A stretch of 39,398 nt of DNA from a virus: positions 1 to 39,398 of IMG/VR virus record IMGVR_UViG_3300046543_000588. The stretch is one strand, 5' to 3'. Under the pieces are notes generated by a model. That model worked only from the letters and a program-made list of their open reading frames with translations. It did not search any database and was not told where the DNA came from. Made by a program: the position numbers and the translations under genes. Positions 2,485 to 17,733 of the stretch are shown here, piece after piece (the first letter of the stretch is position 1; every line of letters starts with the position of its first letter).

Positions 2485-4905
2485 GTGCCCGACCCCCGCC
2501 GCCTGGCCAAGACCTACGGCACGAACGTCCCCGCCTCCATCACGGCAGGCGAGATCGCGTCGCAGATGACGCCCGCGTCGCCGTTCTCGCCCGGCGAGCC
2601 CCTGGGCCCCTACGACGGCTACTCGCGCACCCCCCGGTCGCAGAACTATGTGACCGGCTACAACATCGCGACCAGGCCGCGCACGCACGAGCGCGTCGCG
2701 TTCGACACCCTTCGCGGCCTCGTCGAGTCCTACGACGTCGCCCAGATGTGCATCTGGCACCGCATCGACTCGATCCGGTCCCTCGACTGGAACCTCGTCG
2801 CGAAGTCCGGCTACGGCGGCGACATCACCGACGCGATCCCCGTCGCCATGGCCGCGCTCGCCAAGCCCGACCGGCAGCAGCCGTTCAGCGCCTGGCTCGC
2901 GGCGTGGCTGTACGACATCCTCGCCTACGACGCCGGCGCCCTCTACCGGCTCCGCAACCGCGGCGGCCGGGCGATCGGCCTGCGCGTCGTCGACGGCACC
3001 ACCATCGCCCCGCTCCTGGACTACTGGGGCAACATCCCCGAGGTCCCCGCGCCGGCCTACGTCCAGTACGTCAACGGCCTGCCGTGGGATCAGCTGACCC
3101 GCGACGACCTGATCTACCAGCCGTTCCGGAAGCGCGCCAACTCGCCTTATGGGACGGCGCCGCTGGAGACGATCCTCCTCAACGCCAACACCGACCTGCG
3201 GTTCCAGGCGTACTTCCTGCAGCGCTTCACCGAGGGCAACATTCCGCAGGCGTTCGCCACCGCCCCGGAGGAGTGGACCCCGCAGCAGATCGAGCAGTTC
3301 CAGGAGACGTGGGACGCGTGGCTGCTCGGCGACCAGGCCGCGAAGGCGCAGATCAAGTGGATGCCGGGCGGCAGCAAGGTCGCCTGGTCCAACGAGAAGG
3401 ACTTCCAGGACCACTTCTCGCTGTTCCTGATGCGGAAGACGTGCGCCGCGTTCCATGTCGTACCCAGCGACATGGGCTTCACCGAGTCCGTCAACCGCAG
3501 TTCGGGCGAGTCTCAGGCCGACGTACAGCACCGCATCGGTGACCTGCCGCTGCTGCGCTATGTCCAGCACATCCTGTCCGGGTTCCTACAGGAAGACCTC
3601 GGGCTGCCGCTGGACTTCGCGTTCGACCTCGGCGAGGAACAGGCCGACCGACTCGAGCAGGCCCAGGCCGACAAGATCTACCTGGAGCTCGGCGTCATCG
3701 GCGCCTCCGACATCCGCGAGATGCGCTACGGCCTGCCCGAGCCTGACGGCCAGCCCATCCCCCGCTTCATCTTCACGACCCACGCGGGGCCGATCCCCCT
3801 TGCGTCGCTGCTTTCTGTCGCCGGGGAGATCGACCCGTCTACGGCGGCCCCCGAGCCGGGTGCGCCGCTGCCCCACAGTGTGTTCGCCGGCGTCGAGGGC
3901 GTCACGCCGACGCCGCCGATCAAGGGCGAGCCGCTGGCGGAGCAGATCTACGGCCTGCAGGCGATGCCCGACGCGCCGCCGCCTCAGCCCGTCGCCCAGG
4001 CCCCCGGGGCCGAGGTGGCCAAGGACGGCGCGCCGACGGCGGGGATCACTGCGGAGACGGGGATCACGTCCTACGACCTCGTCGGCCACGACCAGGACGA
4101 CGAAGAAGAGGACCGGGAGCACCTCGCCAAGGCTGAACTGTCGGCGTTCCGCTCCTTCCGCAAAGCACGCCAGAAGGCCGGGAAGTGGCGGGACTTCCAG
4201 TTCCGCGCCATCGACCCGGTCCGCGGCCGTCGCCTGAACCAGCACGGTCGTCTCGCCGTCAGGAAGGCCGCGGGCGAGGTGTCCGTGGCCGGTCTCGCGG
4301 TGCAGGCGGCCGACACCGGCCGGGTCCTGATGCTGCAGCGCTGCCTCGACCCCGAGGATCCGGCGGGCGGCATGTGGGAGTTCCCCGGCGGCCATCTGGA
4401 GGGCGACGAGTCGCCACTCATGGGCGCGTGGCGGGAGTGGGCCGAGGAGACCGGCTGCATCCCGCCTCCCGGCCAGCAGACCGGAATCTGGGTCAGCCCG
4501 AACGGCGTCTACCAGGGCATCGTGTGGCAAGTCCCGTCCGAGTCTTGCGTGCCACTCACCGGCCGGGATCAGATCTCCAACCCGGACGACCCCGACGGCG
4601 ACCAGGTCGAGGCCATCGCCTGGTGGGACCCCGCACTGCTCGCCGGGAACCCGGCCGTCCGCGCGGAGCTCCTCGCCGACCTGGAACTCGTCCTCGCCGC
4701 CCTCGGTGTCGAGAACGTAGAGAAGGCGGCCAAGACCCGACGCCGCTGGATCACGGACGGCGTCAACGCCTGCGACGCCTGCGCTGGCAACGCAGCCGCA
4801 GGCCCGATCACCACAGGCAAGAAGTTCCCCAGCGGCGACACCGCGCCGCCCGCCCACCCGCACTGCGGATGCCACCTGGACACCGAGGGAGGCGCGCATG
4901 GCTGA
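2485..4905 (+). CDS. portal protein fused to a Nudix hydrolase domain and a MuF-like C-terminal tail
   Basis: An 806-residue protein starting at GTG 2485 (GAGGGGG upstream). Residues about 30-430 look like a phage portal (DNA channel at the capsid vertex), including the stretch 'RDDLIYQPF' and a helical stem. Residues about 540-580 (FRKARQKAGKWRDFQF) resemble the helical part before MuF domains. Residues about 590-745 form a Nudix domain with a complete Nudix box, G636-x5-E642-x7-R650-E651-W-A-E654-E655-T-G657-C658, preceded by MWEFPGG. The C-terminus has CDACA (C763, C766) and PPAHPHCGC (C794, C796), the cysteine signature common at the end of MuF head-morphogenesis proteins. The order portal, Nudix, MuF tail in a single frame is unusual. 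XkdF-like protease follows with a short overlap. The Nudix substrate is unknown. Confidence 0.88.
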   Translation: MPDPRRLAKTYGTNVPASITAGEIASQMTPASPFSPGEPLGPYDGYSRTPRSQNYVTGYNIATRPRTHERVAFDTLRGLVESYDVAQMCIWHRIDSIRSLDWNLVAKSGYGGDITDAIPVAMAALAKPDRQQPFSAWLAAWLYDILAYDAGALYRLRNRGGRAIGLRVVDGTTIAPLLDYWGNIPEVPAPAYVQYVNGLPWDQLTRDDLIYQPFRKRANSPYGTAPLETILLNANTDLRFQAYFLQRFTEGNIPQAFATAPEEWTPQQIEQFQETWDAWLLGDQAAKAQIKWMPGGSKVAWSNEKDFQDHFSLFLMRKTCAAFHVVPSDMGFTESVNRSSGESQADVQHRIGDLPLLRYVQHILSGFLQEDLGLPLDFAFDLGEEQADRLEQAQADKIYLELGVIGASDIREMRYGLPEPDGQPIPRFIFTTHAGPIPLASLLSVAGEIDPSTAAPEPGAPLPHSVFAGVEGVTPTPPIKGEPLAEQIYGLQAMPDAPPPQPVAQAPGAEVAKDGAPTAGITAETGITSYDLVGHDQDDEEEDREHLAKAELSAFRSFRKARQKAGKWRDFQFRAIDPVRGRRLNQHGRLAVRKAAGEVSVAGLAVQAADTGRVLMLQRCLDPEDPAGGMWEFPGGHLEGDESPLMGAWREWAEETGCIPPPGQQTGIWVSPNGVYQGIVWQVPSESCVPLTGRDQISNPDDPDGDQVEAIAWWDPALLAGNPAVRAELLADLELVLAALGVENVEKAAKTRRRWITDGVNACDACAGNAAAGPITTGKKFPSGDTAPPAHPHCGCHLDTEGGAHG

Positions 4906-11092: not shown

Positions 11093-11680
11093 CTACTTCG
11101 TGCCGTAGCGCAGTCGCCGGTCTTCCCAACCGGTTCGACGGTGGTCGCCAGGAGAAACCGGCACAAGGTGCGCCGGGTTGACGCACCGACGATGGGGGCA
11201 GGATTTACCGGCCCTACATTCCAAGTCGCGGTTGTGGCAAGCGTGGTCCAATTCCATTTCACCGAGGCCTAGCCCAACGCTGAGCGCATAGGCAAACCTG
11301 TGTGCGAGGACGCCATGACCTCGGGAGATCTGGAATATTGCGTACCCTTCACGGGTCACAGGCTCTGTCCAAATCCAGCACGTTTCAGTCTTGCGAATTT
11401 TCGACCAGAAGCGCTGCTCCAAGGTCAGCGATCCCGGGGTGGGACGCCTCATGGTGAGCGGGTCACCATTCCGCAGCCAGCGCCGGTAGTGCATGGCGCA
11501 CCAACCTTGGGCGAGCCTGACTTTCGGACATCCCTCGATGATGCAGTGCGTATCGGCCGGATGCCATCGCGAAGGCTCCAGGCGCAGAACATCGCCGTGC
11601 TTAAGCCATCGCCGGTAATGCATGCGGCACCAGGTCCGGCAGACAGCCTCACGGGCGCAACTCTCGACTGAACAGTTCAC
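11093..11680 (-). CDS. free-standing HNH homing endonuclease with two zinc-knuckle repeats
   Basis: 195 residues on the minus strand inside the plus-strand head-tail operon. Two similar cysteine units open the protein: CSVESC with 'CRTWCRMHYRRWLKHGD' (residues 3-30) and CIIEGC with 'CAMHYRRWLRNGDPL' (46-75), probably DNA-binding zinc modules. The nuclease part runs from about residue 100 and carries D145-H146, cysteine pairs near C155 and C161, then 'CVNPAHL' (N168, H171), the HNH/treble-clef pattern. Such proteins cut phage DNA and spread into intergenic sites of related phages. Surrounding DNA is less GC-rich than neighbours, another sign of insertion. It ends 2 bases after the small basic gene. 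Confidence 0.88.
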   Translation of the reverse strand: MNCSVESCAREAVCRTWCRMHYRRWLKHGDVLRLEPSRWHPADTHCIIEGCPKVRLAQGWCAMHYRRWLRNGDPLTMRRPTPGSLTLEQRFWSKIRKTETCWIWTEPVTREGYAIFQISRGHGVLAHRFAYALSVGLGLGEMELDHACHNRDLECRAGKSCPHRRCVNPAHLVPVSPGDHRRTGWEDRRLRYGTK

Positions 11681-12913: not shown

Positions 12914-14155
12914 GTGGGTTCCTACCCGACGATCACTGAGGCGCCTGGTGGCCTCTCCTTCACCGGTCTGGCGAAGGAGGCGGCGTACGGGACGCCGGAG
13001 GCGGCGGCGGCGTACCTGCCGGACACCGCGAACACGCTGGGCACGGACCCGGGCTGGTTCTCGCCGCACGTGATGATGGCGCTGCGGGACAAGCAGGTCT
13101 ACAACCTGGTCGGCGAGCAGCACAACGTCGGCGCGATCGACGCCCCCTTGTTCCCGTCGAACGCGATGCTGCTGCTGGTGGCGTCGATCGGCGCTGACGC
13201 CTCGGCTGGTGCCGGCGTCACGGGCACGACCGGAACCGGCACCACGACCCTGTCTGCGGGCTCGTCGGCGAACGCCACCACGATCAGCGTCGCGTCCCAG
13301 ACGGGCTTCGCGACGAACCAGGTCATCCAGATCGACGTGAACGGCACCGGGCCGACGACGACAGCGGAGTGCCGGAAGATCCTCTCGATCACCGGCGCGG
13401 GCCCGTACACCTTCACGCTCGACCAGGCCCTGACGTACTCGCACCTGTCGGCCGCCGCGGTGAAGGGCGTCATCGCCCCGTACACGCACACGATCGTGCA
13501 GCAGAACCAGCTGCCGAGCATGACGATCGAGAAGAACGCCGGCGGTACGACCCGCCAGTCGCTGCAGTACGCGGGTTGCCGCGTCAACAAACTCGACATG
13601 AAGATGCCGGTCGGCAACGAGGCCTGCGCGATCACCGCGGACATCATGGCGCAGTCCGTGCTGGTGCTGGACACGCCGTCGACGCCCAGCATCGCGAACG
13701 AGAACCCGTTCGTGTTCGCCGAGGGGACGCTGTCCTTCTTCGGCACGAGCAGGTACGAGGCCGCCAACCTGGTCCTGAACGTCGACAACATGCTGAAGGA
13801 GACGTACACCTACTCGGGGTTCCACGGTCCGTCCTTCATCACCAGCAACGGGCTGCACGTCTCCGGGACCCTCGACATGGTGTGGTCGAGCTTCGACGAC
13901 GCCACCTACGGCGACTTCACCCGTCTGATCAACCAGAGCGTCGGCGTGCTGACGATGACGCTCACCCACCCTGCCTCGGCCGGAACGATCACGATCACGT
14001 GCCCGCAGATCGTGCTGTCGAAGACCGCCATCGACCCCAAGCCCGAGGACGTCGTCCTGGAAGCCATGACCTGGGAGGCCTCCCGCCCCCAGACAGGCGC
14101 CAGCCAGTACACGATCCAGGCCACGGTCGTGAACAACGCCTACCTCGGCTACTAG
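12914..14155 (+). CDS. major tail (tube) protein with inserted beta module
   Basis: 413 residues from GTG 12914 (GAGGAGG at 12899-12905). Position before the chaperone pair and tape measure, and the sequence ('GLAKEAAYGTPEAAAAYLP', 'PYTHTIVQQNQLPSMTIEK', 'YAGCRVNKLDMKMPVGNEA', 'LTHPASAGTITITCPQ'), fit a siphovirus tail tube protein. Residues about 110-189, starting 'SSANATTISVASQTGF' and ending 'HLSAAAVKGVIAP', are a beta-rich insertion that resembles the insertion in the adaptor. The protein is longer than the simplest tube proteins because of this extra module. A strong terminator follows. Confidence 0.85.
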   Translation: MGSYPTITEAPGGLSFTGLAKEAAYGTPEAAAAYLPDTANTLGTDPGWFSPHVMMALRDKQVYNLVGEQHNVGAIDAPLFPSNAMLLLVASIGADASAGAGVTGTTGTGTTTLSAGSSANATTISVASQTGFATNQVIQIDVNGTGPTTTAECRKILSITGAGPYTFTLDQALTYSHLSAAAVKGVIAPYTHTIVQQNQLPSMTIEKNAGGTTRQSLQYAGCRVNKLDMKMPVGNEACAITADIMAQSVLVLDTPSTPSIANENPFVFAEGTLSFFGTSRYEAANLVLNVDNMLKETYTYSGFHGPSFITSNGLHVSGTLDMVWSSFDDATYGDFTRLINQSVGVLTMTLTHPASAGTITITCPQIVLSKTAIDPKPEDVVLEAMTWEASRPQTGASQYTIQATVVNNAYLGY

Positions 14156-14239: not shown

Positions 14240-14719
14240 ATGGGCTTTCTGTCCGCCTACGACGGCACGCACCGCGTCCCGATCCAGCACCCGGATCCCA
14301 CCAAGGAGTACTGGGTCGACCTGAAGAACTACCTCTCGCACGGGGCCACCGAGAAGGCGCACGTGGCCCTGCAGGAAATGGAGCTCGTCAACGGGAAGCC
14401 CCAGCCGGCTCCGAACGTCTTCAAGCAGAAGTCCGAGCTGGTCCTGGCGGCGGTCCTCGACTGGAACCTCGACGACGACAACGGCACGGTGTGGCCGATC
14501 AACATGCAGTCGATCCGGCGGCTCCCCGACGAGGTGTTCGGGCTGCTGCACAGCGAGGTGGAGCGGCTGAACGGGCCGCGTTCGAAGGAGGAGCAGGCCC
14601 AGTTTCCTGCAGCGGGTGGCGGGGGCGATCAGGTCGCCGGGGGTGACGCCGCCGCCGCCGGAGCTGTCGACGTTCCTGGTGCTGAGCAGGTTCTGGAAGC
14701 ACCTTGGCCTGCGGCGTGA
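14240..14719 (+). CDS. tail assembly chaperone, unshifted product
   Basis: 159 residues from ATG 14240 (GGAG upstream). It is the equivalent of lambda gpG: a cytoplasmic chaperone that coats the tape measure during tail assembly. The place between tube and tape measure, the size, and an overlapping frame at the 3' end are the usual signature. The N-terminal part includes 'PTKEYWVDLKNYLSHGATEKA' and 'LDDDNGTVWPINMQSIRRLPDEVF'. After residue 129 the unshifted protein runs through a Gly/Ala-rich tail and stops at TGA 14717-14719. A slippery sequence lies at 14621-14628. Confidence 0.85.
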   Translation: MGFLSAYDGTHRVPIQHPDPTKEYWVDLKNYLSHGATEKAHVALQEMELVNGKPQPAPNVFKQKSELVLAAVLDWNLDDDNGTVWPINMQSIRRLPDEVFGLLHSEVERLNGPRSKEEQAQFPAAGGGGDQVAGGDAAAAGAVDVPGAEQVLEAPWPAA

Positions 14720-14840
14720 GGATCTCGCTGCTCTTCCGGACCGTGAGGTCCGCGACCTCGTAAAGATCATCGAGCTCATCGAGCGCGAGGAAGCCCTCCG
14801 AGACAAGCAGAGGGGGGCTTCTCGTGGCGGGGTTCGGTGA
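14240..14840 (+). CDS. tail assembly chaperone, predicted -2 frameshift product
   Basis: The predicted long form joins 14240-14626 to 14625-14840, giving about 200 residues. The downstream frame is open from 14571 (TGA at 14568-14570) to TGA 14838-14840. It encodes 'FLVLSRFWKHLGLRREDLA' and 'REVRDLVKIIELIEREEAL', a plausible T-domain that binds the tape measure. The slip site GGGGGCGA is at 14621-14628, with the zero-frame codons GGG GGC GAT. A backward slip of two bases after GGC puts the ribosome on GCG ATC AGG. A +1 shift would reach the same frame. No separate good start for the downstream frame is evident. Confidence 0.75.
14621..14628 (+). promoter_or_regulatory. predicted -2 programmed ribosomal frameshift site
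   Basis: The octamer GGGGGCGA occurs in the chaperone overlap in the phase GGG GGC GA. This is the sequence and phase I recall for the -2 shift described in the phage Mu tail chaperone genes. It lies inside the only window where both frames are open (14571-14719). Many actinophages use -1 sites instead. Confidence 0.7.
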
Positions 14841-17733
14841 GGCATTCACGGTCATGGCCGTGTTCGAGGCCTACGACAAGATGTCGTCCGTCCTGGAGAA
14901 GATGGACGTCGGCCTGAACCGGTTTTCCGAGACCGCCATGAAGACCGCCACCGTTGCCGCGGAGGCCGGGGCGCGGATCGACGAGTCCCTGCTGCAGACC
15001 GCGTCGGGCGCCGACGCGGTGGAGGTCGCCGACGCCCGACTGCAGGCAGCCCAGTCGAAGCTGGCGGTGTCCACAAAGGAGCAGGCGGCGGCGGAGCGGG
15101 AGCTCCTCGACATCCAGGCCCGTGCGGCGGCGGGCATGGAGGATGCGGTCGCCACCGAGGCGAAGCTGGCGCAGGCATCTGATGCTCTGGCTGCCGCTGA
15201 CAAGCGTGTGGCTGCGGCATCCAAGGCCGTGGCCGACGCGCAGAAGCTGCAGGCGGACACCGCCAGGGCTGCAGCGGCATCGACCGGTGAGGCCGCCGCG
15301 GTTGCCGACACCTCGGCCGCGGCGCAGGCCAGGGTGGGGCGTGCTGCCGGGGAGACGGCGACCGCTTCCGGGCTGGCATCGAAGGCCATGACCGTCGGCG
15401 CGGTGGCGGTCGCGGCGATCGGCTACGAGTCCGTGAAAGCTGCGGCGAACTTCCAGACGCTCACGACGCGTCTGGTGACCACTGCAGGCGAGGCGCCGTC
15501 GGCCCTCGGGAAGATCCAGCAGGGCATCCTGCAGATCTCGGTGCAGACGGGCACGTCGGCGGCCGAACTGGCGAAGTCTATGTACACGGTCGAGGCAGCT
15601 GGCTACGACGCTGCTCACGGTGGCCTGGATGTTCTTCGGGCGTCGACTGAGGGCGCGGCGCTGGAGGGTTCTGACTTCGGGACGGTGTCGAACGCGGTCA
15701 CCGACATCTTGAAGGACTACCACCTCGGCGCCGGCCAGGCGGCGGACTACACCTCGAAGCTCGTCGCCGCTGTCTCGTCCGGTAAAGCGAACTTCCAGCA
15801 GATGTCGGCCGCGATGGCGAACATTCTGCCGCAGGCCTCTGCCGTGCATCTGTCGTTCGCGGACGTGTCTGGGGTGCTGGCGACGATGACGTCGCACGGC
15901 ATGTCGGCGCAACGGGCGTCGATGAACATGGCGAATGCCCTGCGGAACCTGGAGGGCCCGACGGGGACGATGTTGAAGGAGTTCAAGCTCCTTGGCATCA
16001 ACTCGCAGGAGTTGCAGCAGCACCTGGCTACGCAAGGCCTGGGCGGGACGCTGCAGTGGCTGTCGACAGTCGCCGCGTCGGGAGCACCGAAGGTCGGACA
16101 GACCTACGTCGATGCGCTCAAGAAGCTGACCGGCTCCGCGTCGGGTCTGAACGTCGCCCTGATGACGACCGGGGAGAACAGCAAGCAGACCTCCGACGCC
16201 ATCGCCCGCATCTCGAAGGCGACTGCTGACGCGCACGGCAACGTGTCCGGGTTCTCGACGCTGCAGGGCACGTTCGCGTTCCAGATGAACCAGGCGAAGG
16301 CCGCGGTCAACGCGGCTGGGATCACCATCGGGAACATCCTTCTTCCGGCGGTCACGTCGATCGCGAAGGAAGTCGCCCAGGTCGTCGGGCCGATGGCGAC
16401 GTGGATCTCCCAGCACCAGAAGATCGTCGGGCTGATCGCCTCGGTCGCGGGCGGCATCATGCTCGCTGTCGGCGCGTTGAAGGCTTGGGCGGCGATCCAG
16501 GGCACGATCAACGCACTGATGCTCGCCTTCGATGCCGAGGCGGACGCGAATCCGATCGGCCTGATCGTGATCGCGATCGCCGCGCTGGTCGCCGGGCTGA
16601 TCTACGCGTACACGCACTTCAAGACGTTCCACGACATCGTGAACACCGTCTTCAAGGCAGTCTCGGGCATTGTCACCGGCGCCTGGCACGTCCTGCAGGC
16701 GGTCTGGAACGCCTTGGTGACCGCGGTCACCTCAGTCGGGAACGTGTTCTCGACCGTCTTCCACGCGGTCTCCGCGGTCGTGCAGTCCGTGTGGGGCGTG
16801 ATCTCCGGCGTCTGGAACACGATCGCTTCCGTCACCACCACCATCTGGAACGGCATTTCGGGGTTCTTCCAGAAGTGGTGGCCACTCCTGATGGTCATCT
16901 TCATGACGCCCATCGCGATCCTCGTCGCGCTGTGGAACCACACCCACCAGGCGATCTTCGACACCGCGAAGACCGTGTGGAACGCGATCTCCGGGTTCTT
17001 CGTCGGCGTGTGGCATCTGATCACGGCCGCGACGCAGGCCGCCTGGAACCTCTTCAAGACCTACGTCATCGCGCCGATCCAGGCGGTGTGGGCGTTCATC
17101 CAGCCCGGACTGCACCAGATCGCGTCGTTCATGTCAGGTGTGTGGAACGGCATCGTGTCCGTCGTCCAGACGATGTGGGGCCTGGTCAAGACGTACATCA
17201 TCAAGCCGATTCAGGACGCCTGGAACTTCCTGACCGGCTGGATCGGGAAGTTCGTGCAGATCGGCACGAACATCGTCCAGGGCATCATCAACGGACTCAC
17301 CGGCGCCGCGAGCTGGCTCATGAACCAGGTCTCCAGCCTGGCCAGCGACGCCCTGAAGGCCGCGAAGTCGGCCCTGGGGATCGGCTCCCCGTCGCGTCGG
17401 TTCGCCGACGAGATCGGCAAGTGGATCCCGCACGGCATCGCCGCTGGCGTCGACGAGCACGCGCAGGTCGCGCACGACGCCGTGAAGCGCCTCTCGAACG
17501 GCCTGACCGCAGCCGGCCAGGTCGCCGTGTCTGGTGCGTTCACGGGGACCGTCTCCAGCAGCGGCTTCTCGGCGCTCGGCGGGGCAGGCCGTGGGACGAC
17601 CGTCGTGGTTCAGGTCGACCTGAAGAATGCCGTTGTCGCCAACCAGTCCGCGATGACGCAGCTCGCCAGCACGCTCGGCAAGGAAGTCGTCAAGCAGTTC
17701 ACCTCCGCTGGCCACAAAGCGACTGTGTACTAG
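14824..17733 (+). CDS. tape measure protein
   Basis: 969 residues from GTG 14824 (GGGGGG upstream), overlapping the end of the chaperone frame. The N-terminal 200 residues are Ala-rich coiled coil. A TP901-type tape measure core follows ('AANFQTLTTRLVTTAGEA', 'ALEGSDFGTVSNAVTDIL', 'MTSHGMSAQRASMNMANALR'). Hydrophobic segments lie near residues 533-557, 575-596 and 686-705. A Trp-rich repeated region (VWNAIS, AWNLF, VWNGI) and the common C-terminal 'GIGSPSRRFADEIG' complete it. It sets tail length, fills the tube, and its hydrophobic parts may form the DNA channel in the host membrane. By the usual 1.5 angstrom per residue rule the tail would be near 145 nm, which is an estimate. Confidence 0.95.
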   Translation: MAGFGEAFTVMAVFEAYDKMSSVLEKMDVGLNRFSETAMKTATVAAEAGARIDESLLQTASGADAVEVADARLQAAQSKLAVSTKEQAAAERELLDIQARAAAGMEDAVATEAKLAQASDALAAADKRVAAASKAVADAQKLQADTARAAAASTGEAAAVADTSAAAQARVGRAAGETATASGLASKAMTVGAVAVAAIGYESVKAAANFQTLTTRLVTTAGEAPSALGKIQQGILQISVQTGTSAAELAKSMYTVEAAGYDAAHGGLDVLRASTEGAALEGSDFGTVSNAVTDILKDYHLGAGQAADYTSKLVAAVSSGKANFQQMSAAMANILPQASAVHLSFADVSGVLATMTSHGMSAQRASMNMANALRNLEGPTGTMLKEFKLLGINSQELQQHLATQGLGGTLQWLSTVAASGAPKVGQTYVDALKKLTGSASGLNVALMTTGENSKQTSDAIARISKATADAHGNVSGFSTLQGTFAFQMNQAKAAVNAAGITIGNILLPAVTSIAKEVAQVVGPMATWISQHQKIVGLIASVAGGIMLAVGALKAWAAIQGTINALMLAFDAEADANPIGLIVIAIAALVAGLIYAYTHFKTFHDIVNTVFKAVSGIVTGAWHVLQAVWNALVTAVTSVGNVFSTVFHAVSAVVQSVWGVISGVWNTIASVTTTIWNGISGFFQKWWPLLMVIFMTPIAILVALWNHTHQAIFDTAKTVWNAISGFFVGVWHLITAATQAAWNLFKTYVIAPIQAVWAFIQPGLHQIASFMSGVWNGIVSVVQTMWGLVKTYIIKPIQDAWNFLTGWIGKFVQIGTNIVQGIINGLTGAASWLMNQVSSLASDALKAAKSALGIGSPSRRFADEIGKWIPHGIAAGVDEHAQVAHDAVKRLSNGLTAAGQVAVSGAFTGTVSSSGFSALGGAGRGTTVVVQVDLKNAVVANQSAMTQLASTLGKEVVKQFTSAGHKATVY

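Follow-up and report, generated by a model that had tools for sequence, protein, structure and literature searches.

Between its tail tube and tape measure genes, the viral DNA analysed here (39,398 nucleotides, hereafter the window) carries two overlapping reading frames, G and T, which raise the question of where and in which direction ribosomes shift from one to the other. In phage chaperone genes, frameshifts are almost always recorded as −1, while −2 (Mu) and +1 shifts are exceptions. The first-pass annotation had read the locus as a tail chaperone gene with a Mu-like −2 shift at the G-rich octamer GGGGGCGA. Our analysis leads to a different answer: the locus is in all likelihood a lambda G/GT-type chaperone pair expressed by programmed +1 frameshifting at CAG_UUU_CCU (14600–14608). 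By the comparative sequence evidence, the −2 direction and the octamer are wrong for the G/T family as a whole and very probably for the window phage.

The G/T locus and its relatives

G and T occupy the frames with remainders 2 and 0 modulo 3, respectively, which places T in the +1/−2 relation to G rather than in the usual −1 relation, as the first-pass annotation had correctly noted. The pair shows the gene order of G/GT chaperones (Table 1). The T frame is open from 14571 to 14840, and T comprises 78 residues including the Phe of the proposed shift site. No phage-encoded tRNAs were found in the window. Adjoining the tail genes, an HNH-type homing endonuclease-like ORF was recognized by eye from its translation on the minus strand (11093–11680); a further ORF of this type, also identified by eye, lies between the tail tube and chaperone genes of one relative (L003, 3469–4002).

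Table 1. Coordinates of the chaperone locus and flanking tail genes in the window.
Feature	Position	Strand	Evidence
Tail tube protein gene, upstream	12914..14155	+	PF18906, E=2.4e-16
G, zero-frame tail assembly chaperone, 159 aa	14240..14719	+	ORF; weak profile matches of relatives; Foldseek
Proposed +1 shift site UUU_CCU	14603..14608	+	TTT_C in 34/34 loci; sole invariant four-column run; onset of dual coding
T, +1-frame extension after the slip	14604..14840	+	Alignment of 30 loci; T-frame selection from the TTT codon
GGGGGCGA, earlier −2 site, judged incidental	14621..14628	+	In phase in 4/34 loci; expected in 31% of synonymous redraws
Tape measure protein gene, downstream	14824..17733	+	phrog_58, E=2e-80

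For comparison, 11 IMG/VR contigs were recruited through the tape measure protein, and two G alignments supplied further loci, taken from IMG/VR and from one Catenulispora genome bin. After removal of duplicates, the final set comprised 34 G/T loci including that of the window, all of which keep both frames. Among the first 25 loci aligned, G identity to the G of the window ranges from 29 to 53%, with a median pairwise identity of 42%. In every one of the 34 loci, T lies in the +1/−2 frame, overlaps the end of G, and extends past the G stop; in the alignment, both frames are under selection. When three G proteins and one T protein served as tblastn queries, no G/T relatives were found among 50,697 isolated phage records; the family is thus known here only from uncultured sequence and the one genome bin. 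Matches of a chaperone query to a Bacillus phage were rejected as too weak (E=0.1), and the T frame of that phage is in the −1 relation. Two contigs that share the tape measure (L005, L006) were left out, as their G/T-like pair is a different one and stands in the −1 relation (2193–2731 and 4312–4850, respectively). Since this different pair accompanies a related tape measure protein, chaperone modules seem to have been swapped between tails with related tape measures.

The chaperone identity assigned in the first pass is borne out by gene order, profiles, and fold. G relatives give weak profile matches to the phrog_344 tail assembly chaperone and to PF08890 (TAC). The AlphaFold model of G forms one domain, with block pLDDT values mostly of 94–98, which ends at about residue 121 and is followed by a low-confidence tail. 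Against predicted viral structures, the top named Foldseek matches are tail assembly chaperones of the Bacillus phages 019DV002 and Gemini, and the best named chaperone matches reach E-values of 7e-6 and 1.5e-5 at a TM-score of about 0.5. Lower matches with moderate TM-scores include chaperones of Arthrobacter phage Salgado, whose record leaves the chaperone gene unlabelled in the region examined, and of Gordonia phage Teatealatte, as well as Mu FS-gp41 (E=0.006). A search of the PDB gave no fold match to the G model below E=1. Thus, G resembles chaperones by fold, while its sequence profiles are weak.

Candidate shift sites in the frame overlap

The overlap of the open frames does contain the octamer, in the position and phase first described (GGG GGC GAT in G), but it also holds two sequences that had been overlooked, namely CAG TTT CCT and, at 14639 and in the phase of the octamer, the near-identical GGGGGTGA. 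The second G run is not conserved and was rejected as a shift site. The TTT_C within CAG TTT CCT (14603–14606) lies 18 nt, or six codons, upstream of the octamer position. At the transition, a zero-frame TTT followed by C is found without exception in the 34 loci (TTTCCT in 23, TTTCGT in 5, TTTCGC in 4, and TTTCCA in 2), and apart from TTTC no four consecutive columns of the DNA alignment are invariant. Phe is otherwise mostly encoded by TTC: a conserved Phe 19–27 codons upstream of the site is TTC in 29 loci and TTT in one, and TTT makes up only 2 of the 86 Phe codons in the window structural genes, where CCT accounts for 7 of 105 Pro codons. Across loci, the A site is mostly occupied by CCU or CGU, both of which are rare by codon usage in the window (2.95 and 3.80 per 1000 codons, respectively), whereas CUG and GUG, which predominate as the new-frame codon, are common there (CTG, 45 per 1000). 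The one other TTT-rich place is codon 3 of G, close to the start codon (17 TTT, 16 TTC), where the window has a second in-frame TTT_C (14246–14249) before a common CTG. As codon 3 is also TTT C, UUU_C would be insufficient by itself, which suggests either that its action depends on a slowly read A-site codon or that the TTT at codon 3 reflects the composition of the start region.

The onset of dual coding was mapped by comparing, codon by codon, the T-frame peptides of 32 loci with synonymous redraws of the G codons. Upstream of TTT, no T-frame signal is seen (z=0.4 at codons −14 to −8; z=−0.8 at −7 to −2). At the TTT codon itself z rises to 9.6, followed by 6.6 at the next codon. Between TTT and the octamer it amounts to 8.9 (codons +1 to +5) or 6.5 (+2 to +5), and from the octamer position on (+6 to +12) it reaches 13.5. 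These z-scores ignore phylogeny, for which the flat upstream block, sharing the same phylogeny, serves as a control. Synonymous-site identity of G also rises from the TTT codon on. As T-frame selection is flat upstream and strong at TTT, we conclude from this coding signal that T is translated from the TTT codon and not from the octamer.

Taken together, the +1/−2 relation of T, the invariance of TTT_C in all 34 loci against TTC elsewhere, and the start of T selection at TTT argue for the +1 model over a shift at the octamer, where a Gly tRNA would slip back two bases to yield GGGG followed by AIRSPG. That shift has an established precedent in Mu (PMC5009743), the octamer stands in exact phase in the window and recurs in phase in three relatives (L014, L023, and L027), and the G model also resembles Mu FS-gp41. 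The conservation check set beforehand nevertheless went against it: among relatives keeping both frames the octamer varies freely and is in phase in just 4 of the 34 loci, window included. The same codons read GGC GGC GAT, AGC GGC GAT, GAC GGC GAT, or CGG GGC GAT in other loci, with CTC GGC GAT, GGC AGC AGT, and GAC GAG CGT as further variants, and the family consensus GTC GGC GGC GAT is one C-to-G change away from a match to the Mu octamer. Neither does the exact match constitute the strong evidence it was taken for. With the G peptide fixed and the overlap codons redrawn from the codon usage of the window phage, GGGGGCGA appears in phase in 31% of the synonymous draws, and it arises so easily because the overlap encodes GGGGD and GGD; in the window as a whole it occurs 3 times per strand versus 2 for the reversed control. 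Moreover, T-frame selection is already evident upstream of the octamer, as is the beginning of the first predicted T helix. We therefore regard a −2 shift at the octamer as very improbable; of the original prediction, the move into the +1/−2 frame stands, and the direction and the site do not.

It is also unlikely that both sites act in the four octamer-bearing phages, with the +1 shift at UUU_C as the main and a −2 shift at GGGGGCGA as the minor event. The window, L014, L023, and L027 do carry the two sequences in phase, yet nothing requires a second site, and the octamer arises easily from coding sequence. Translation of T from its own start codon, with no frameshift at all, could begin no earlier than the GTG at 14616, as no other start codon precedes it in the T frame; this is downstream of the UUU_C codon to which T-frame selection reaches back, no start codon is conserved, and the window and several relatives lack the Met of AIRMG, so that we give this reading hardly any credence.

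For the +1 shift at UUU_C, we infer the following course of events. The majority of ribosomes would reach the G stop at 14719 and release G. In the remainder, the P-site tRNA-Phe would slip from UUU to UUC (14604–14606) while a rare CCU or CGN codon waits in the A site, and the next new-frame codon, CUG (14607–14609), would then be read into the G-T fusion. RNAalifold predicts no pairs for a conserved RNA stimulator, and the efficiency of the shift may therefore be low. A further point against the model is the T peptide of the window between UUU_C and the octamer (QRVA), which matches the family pattern xxxS more poorly than do most of the others. By analogy with lambda, G would coat the tape measure protein and G-T would recruit the tail tube subunit (PMC5009743). 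The structural models are compatible with this site. The shift codon corresponds to G residue 122, at the end of the modelled domain, and the AlphaFold model of T contains four helices, the first of which (residues 2–10) directly follows the slip and spans the octamer codons. Drawn from these two separate models, the +1 product could join the last G helix (116–121) to the first T helix, most of which would be missing from a −2 product made at the octamer. The predicted junction peptides likewise differ, being EEQAQFLQR for the +1 shift at UUU_C and EEQAQFPAAGGGGAIR for the −2 shift at the octamer.

A second chaperone family in cultured actinophages

Through cultured phages whose tape measure resembles that of the window, a second family was found in phages of Microbacterium, Gordonia, Arthrobacter, Micrococcus, Curtobacterium, and Mycobacterium (Ajin, Aesir, Lambo, Wollypog, Kurnik, Shrew, Indlulamithi). 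Its proteins are unrelated in sequence to those of the window family, while the +1/−2 frame of T and UUU_CG(U/C) are the same. In 13 of the 15 loci sampled, the final Phe codon of G stands in TTT CGT or TTT CGC; the sample is small, relatedness was ignored, and Aesir and Rachella are nearly identical at this locus. Other Phe codons are TTC in 72 cases and TTT in 6. The site is usually located 22 codons before the G stop, and T begins with F(V/A). The two exceptions, Microbacterium phage Triscuit (L067), with TTT CTG, and Mycobacterium phage Onyinye (L073), which lacks UUU_C at the last Phe codon, nonetheless have T open in the +1/−2 frame.

The records of Aesir and Wollypog already contain a joined chaperone CDS, and the shift into the +1/−2 frame is thus known to annotators; other records list two hypothetical proteins. 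Upstream of the tape measure gene, separately annotated hypothetical pairs occur in Microbacterium phage Ajin (gp28/29; L059, 1457–2282) and Curtobacterium phage Shrew (gp60/61; L062, 1483–2296), both in the +1/−2 relation with TTT CGT at the transition. On these sequence features, the two pairs are probably unannotated chaperone frameshifts. Gordonia phage Lambo has UUU_CGC with T in the +1 frame, and Gordonia phage Alyssamiracle was matched next to it. A 2026 report that includes Alyssamiracle describes a chaperone frameshift (−1) only in another phage, Fribs8 (PMC13355239).

We consider it fairly likely that tail chaperones of Actinobacteria phages share a general +1 signal, UUU_C with CCU or CGN behind it, and that at least two sequence-unrelated families use it. 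Such a signal would be a bacterial counterpart of the PA-X class and would explain some of the cases in which annotators of chaperone genes did not find a slippery sequence. According to the tool paper for PRFect (2024), forward shifts lack an identified general motif, and triplet runs are listed there as candidates (PMC10885494); our search of open-access papers turned up no account of a forward site of the UUU_C type in the chaperone genes of phages. Strict conservation and the exact onset of dual coding support a specific forward motif composed of UUU_C and a rare Pro or Arg codon. Its presence in phages growing on laboratory hosts makes the motif directly testable, and gene models currently split into two hypothetical proteins, of which Alyssamiracle may offer an example, would be corrected. 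Further, the locus illustrates how misleading even a perfect copy of a well-known octamer can be when the reading frame is rich in Gly and high in GC.

Comparison with known frameshift systems

With the lambda G/GT tail chaperones (Xu, Hendrix, Duda 2004, as cited in PMC5009743), the window family shares the position between tail tube and tape measure genes, a short G with a frameshifted G-T, and the chaperone-like fold of G. In contrast, the common −1 heptamer found there is replaced by a +1 site at UUU_C, and the family is without sequence relatives among the isolated phage records searched. The Mu tail assembly genes resemble the locus in having T in the +1/−2 frame and in the octamer present in the window phage; they differ in that the octamer is not conserved in the window family, where T-frame selection begins upstream of it. 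Streptomyces phage Sycamore, for which a variant of the Mu octamer has been reported (PMC8407750), was rejected as a comparison since, by our reading of its record, its T frame is in the −1 relation. Phages Goodman, Pajaza, and IndiRoo, also examined, have T in the −1 frame.

A parallel in the site itself is offered by PA-X of influenza A, where the +1 shift at UCC_UUU_CGU was demonstrated by peptide sequencing and from which a class of UUU_C sites with restricted neighbouring codons was predicted in eukaryotes (PMC3498833); no RNA stimulator is evident there (PMC5009743). UUU_C in the P site, a rare A-site codon, and the lack of a conserved RNA stimulator are common to both, and five relatives of the window carry the exact UUU_CGU. 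The difference is that a bacterial ribosome and a phage gene are concerned here, with mostly CCU in the A site and mostly CAG in the E site. Among phages, the Listeria phages PSA, A118, and A500 use +1 sites of the type CCC_UGA, with ACA_CCC as an additional site in PSA (PMC5009743). While these place the Pro codon CCC in the P site and act in major capsid and tail shaft genes rather than in chaperones, they share with the window family a +1 shift in a phage structural gene that involves a rare codon.
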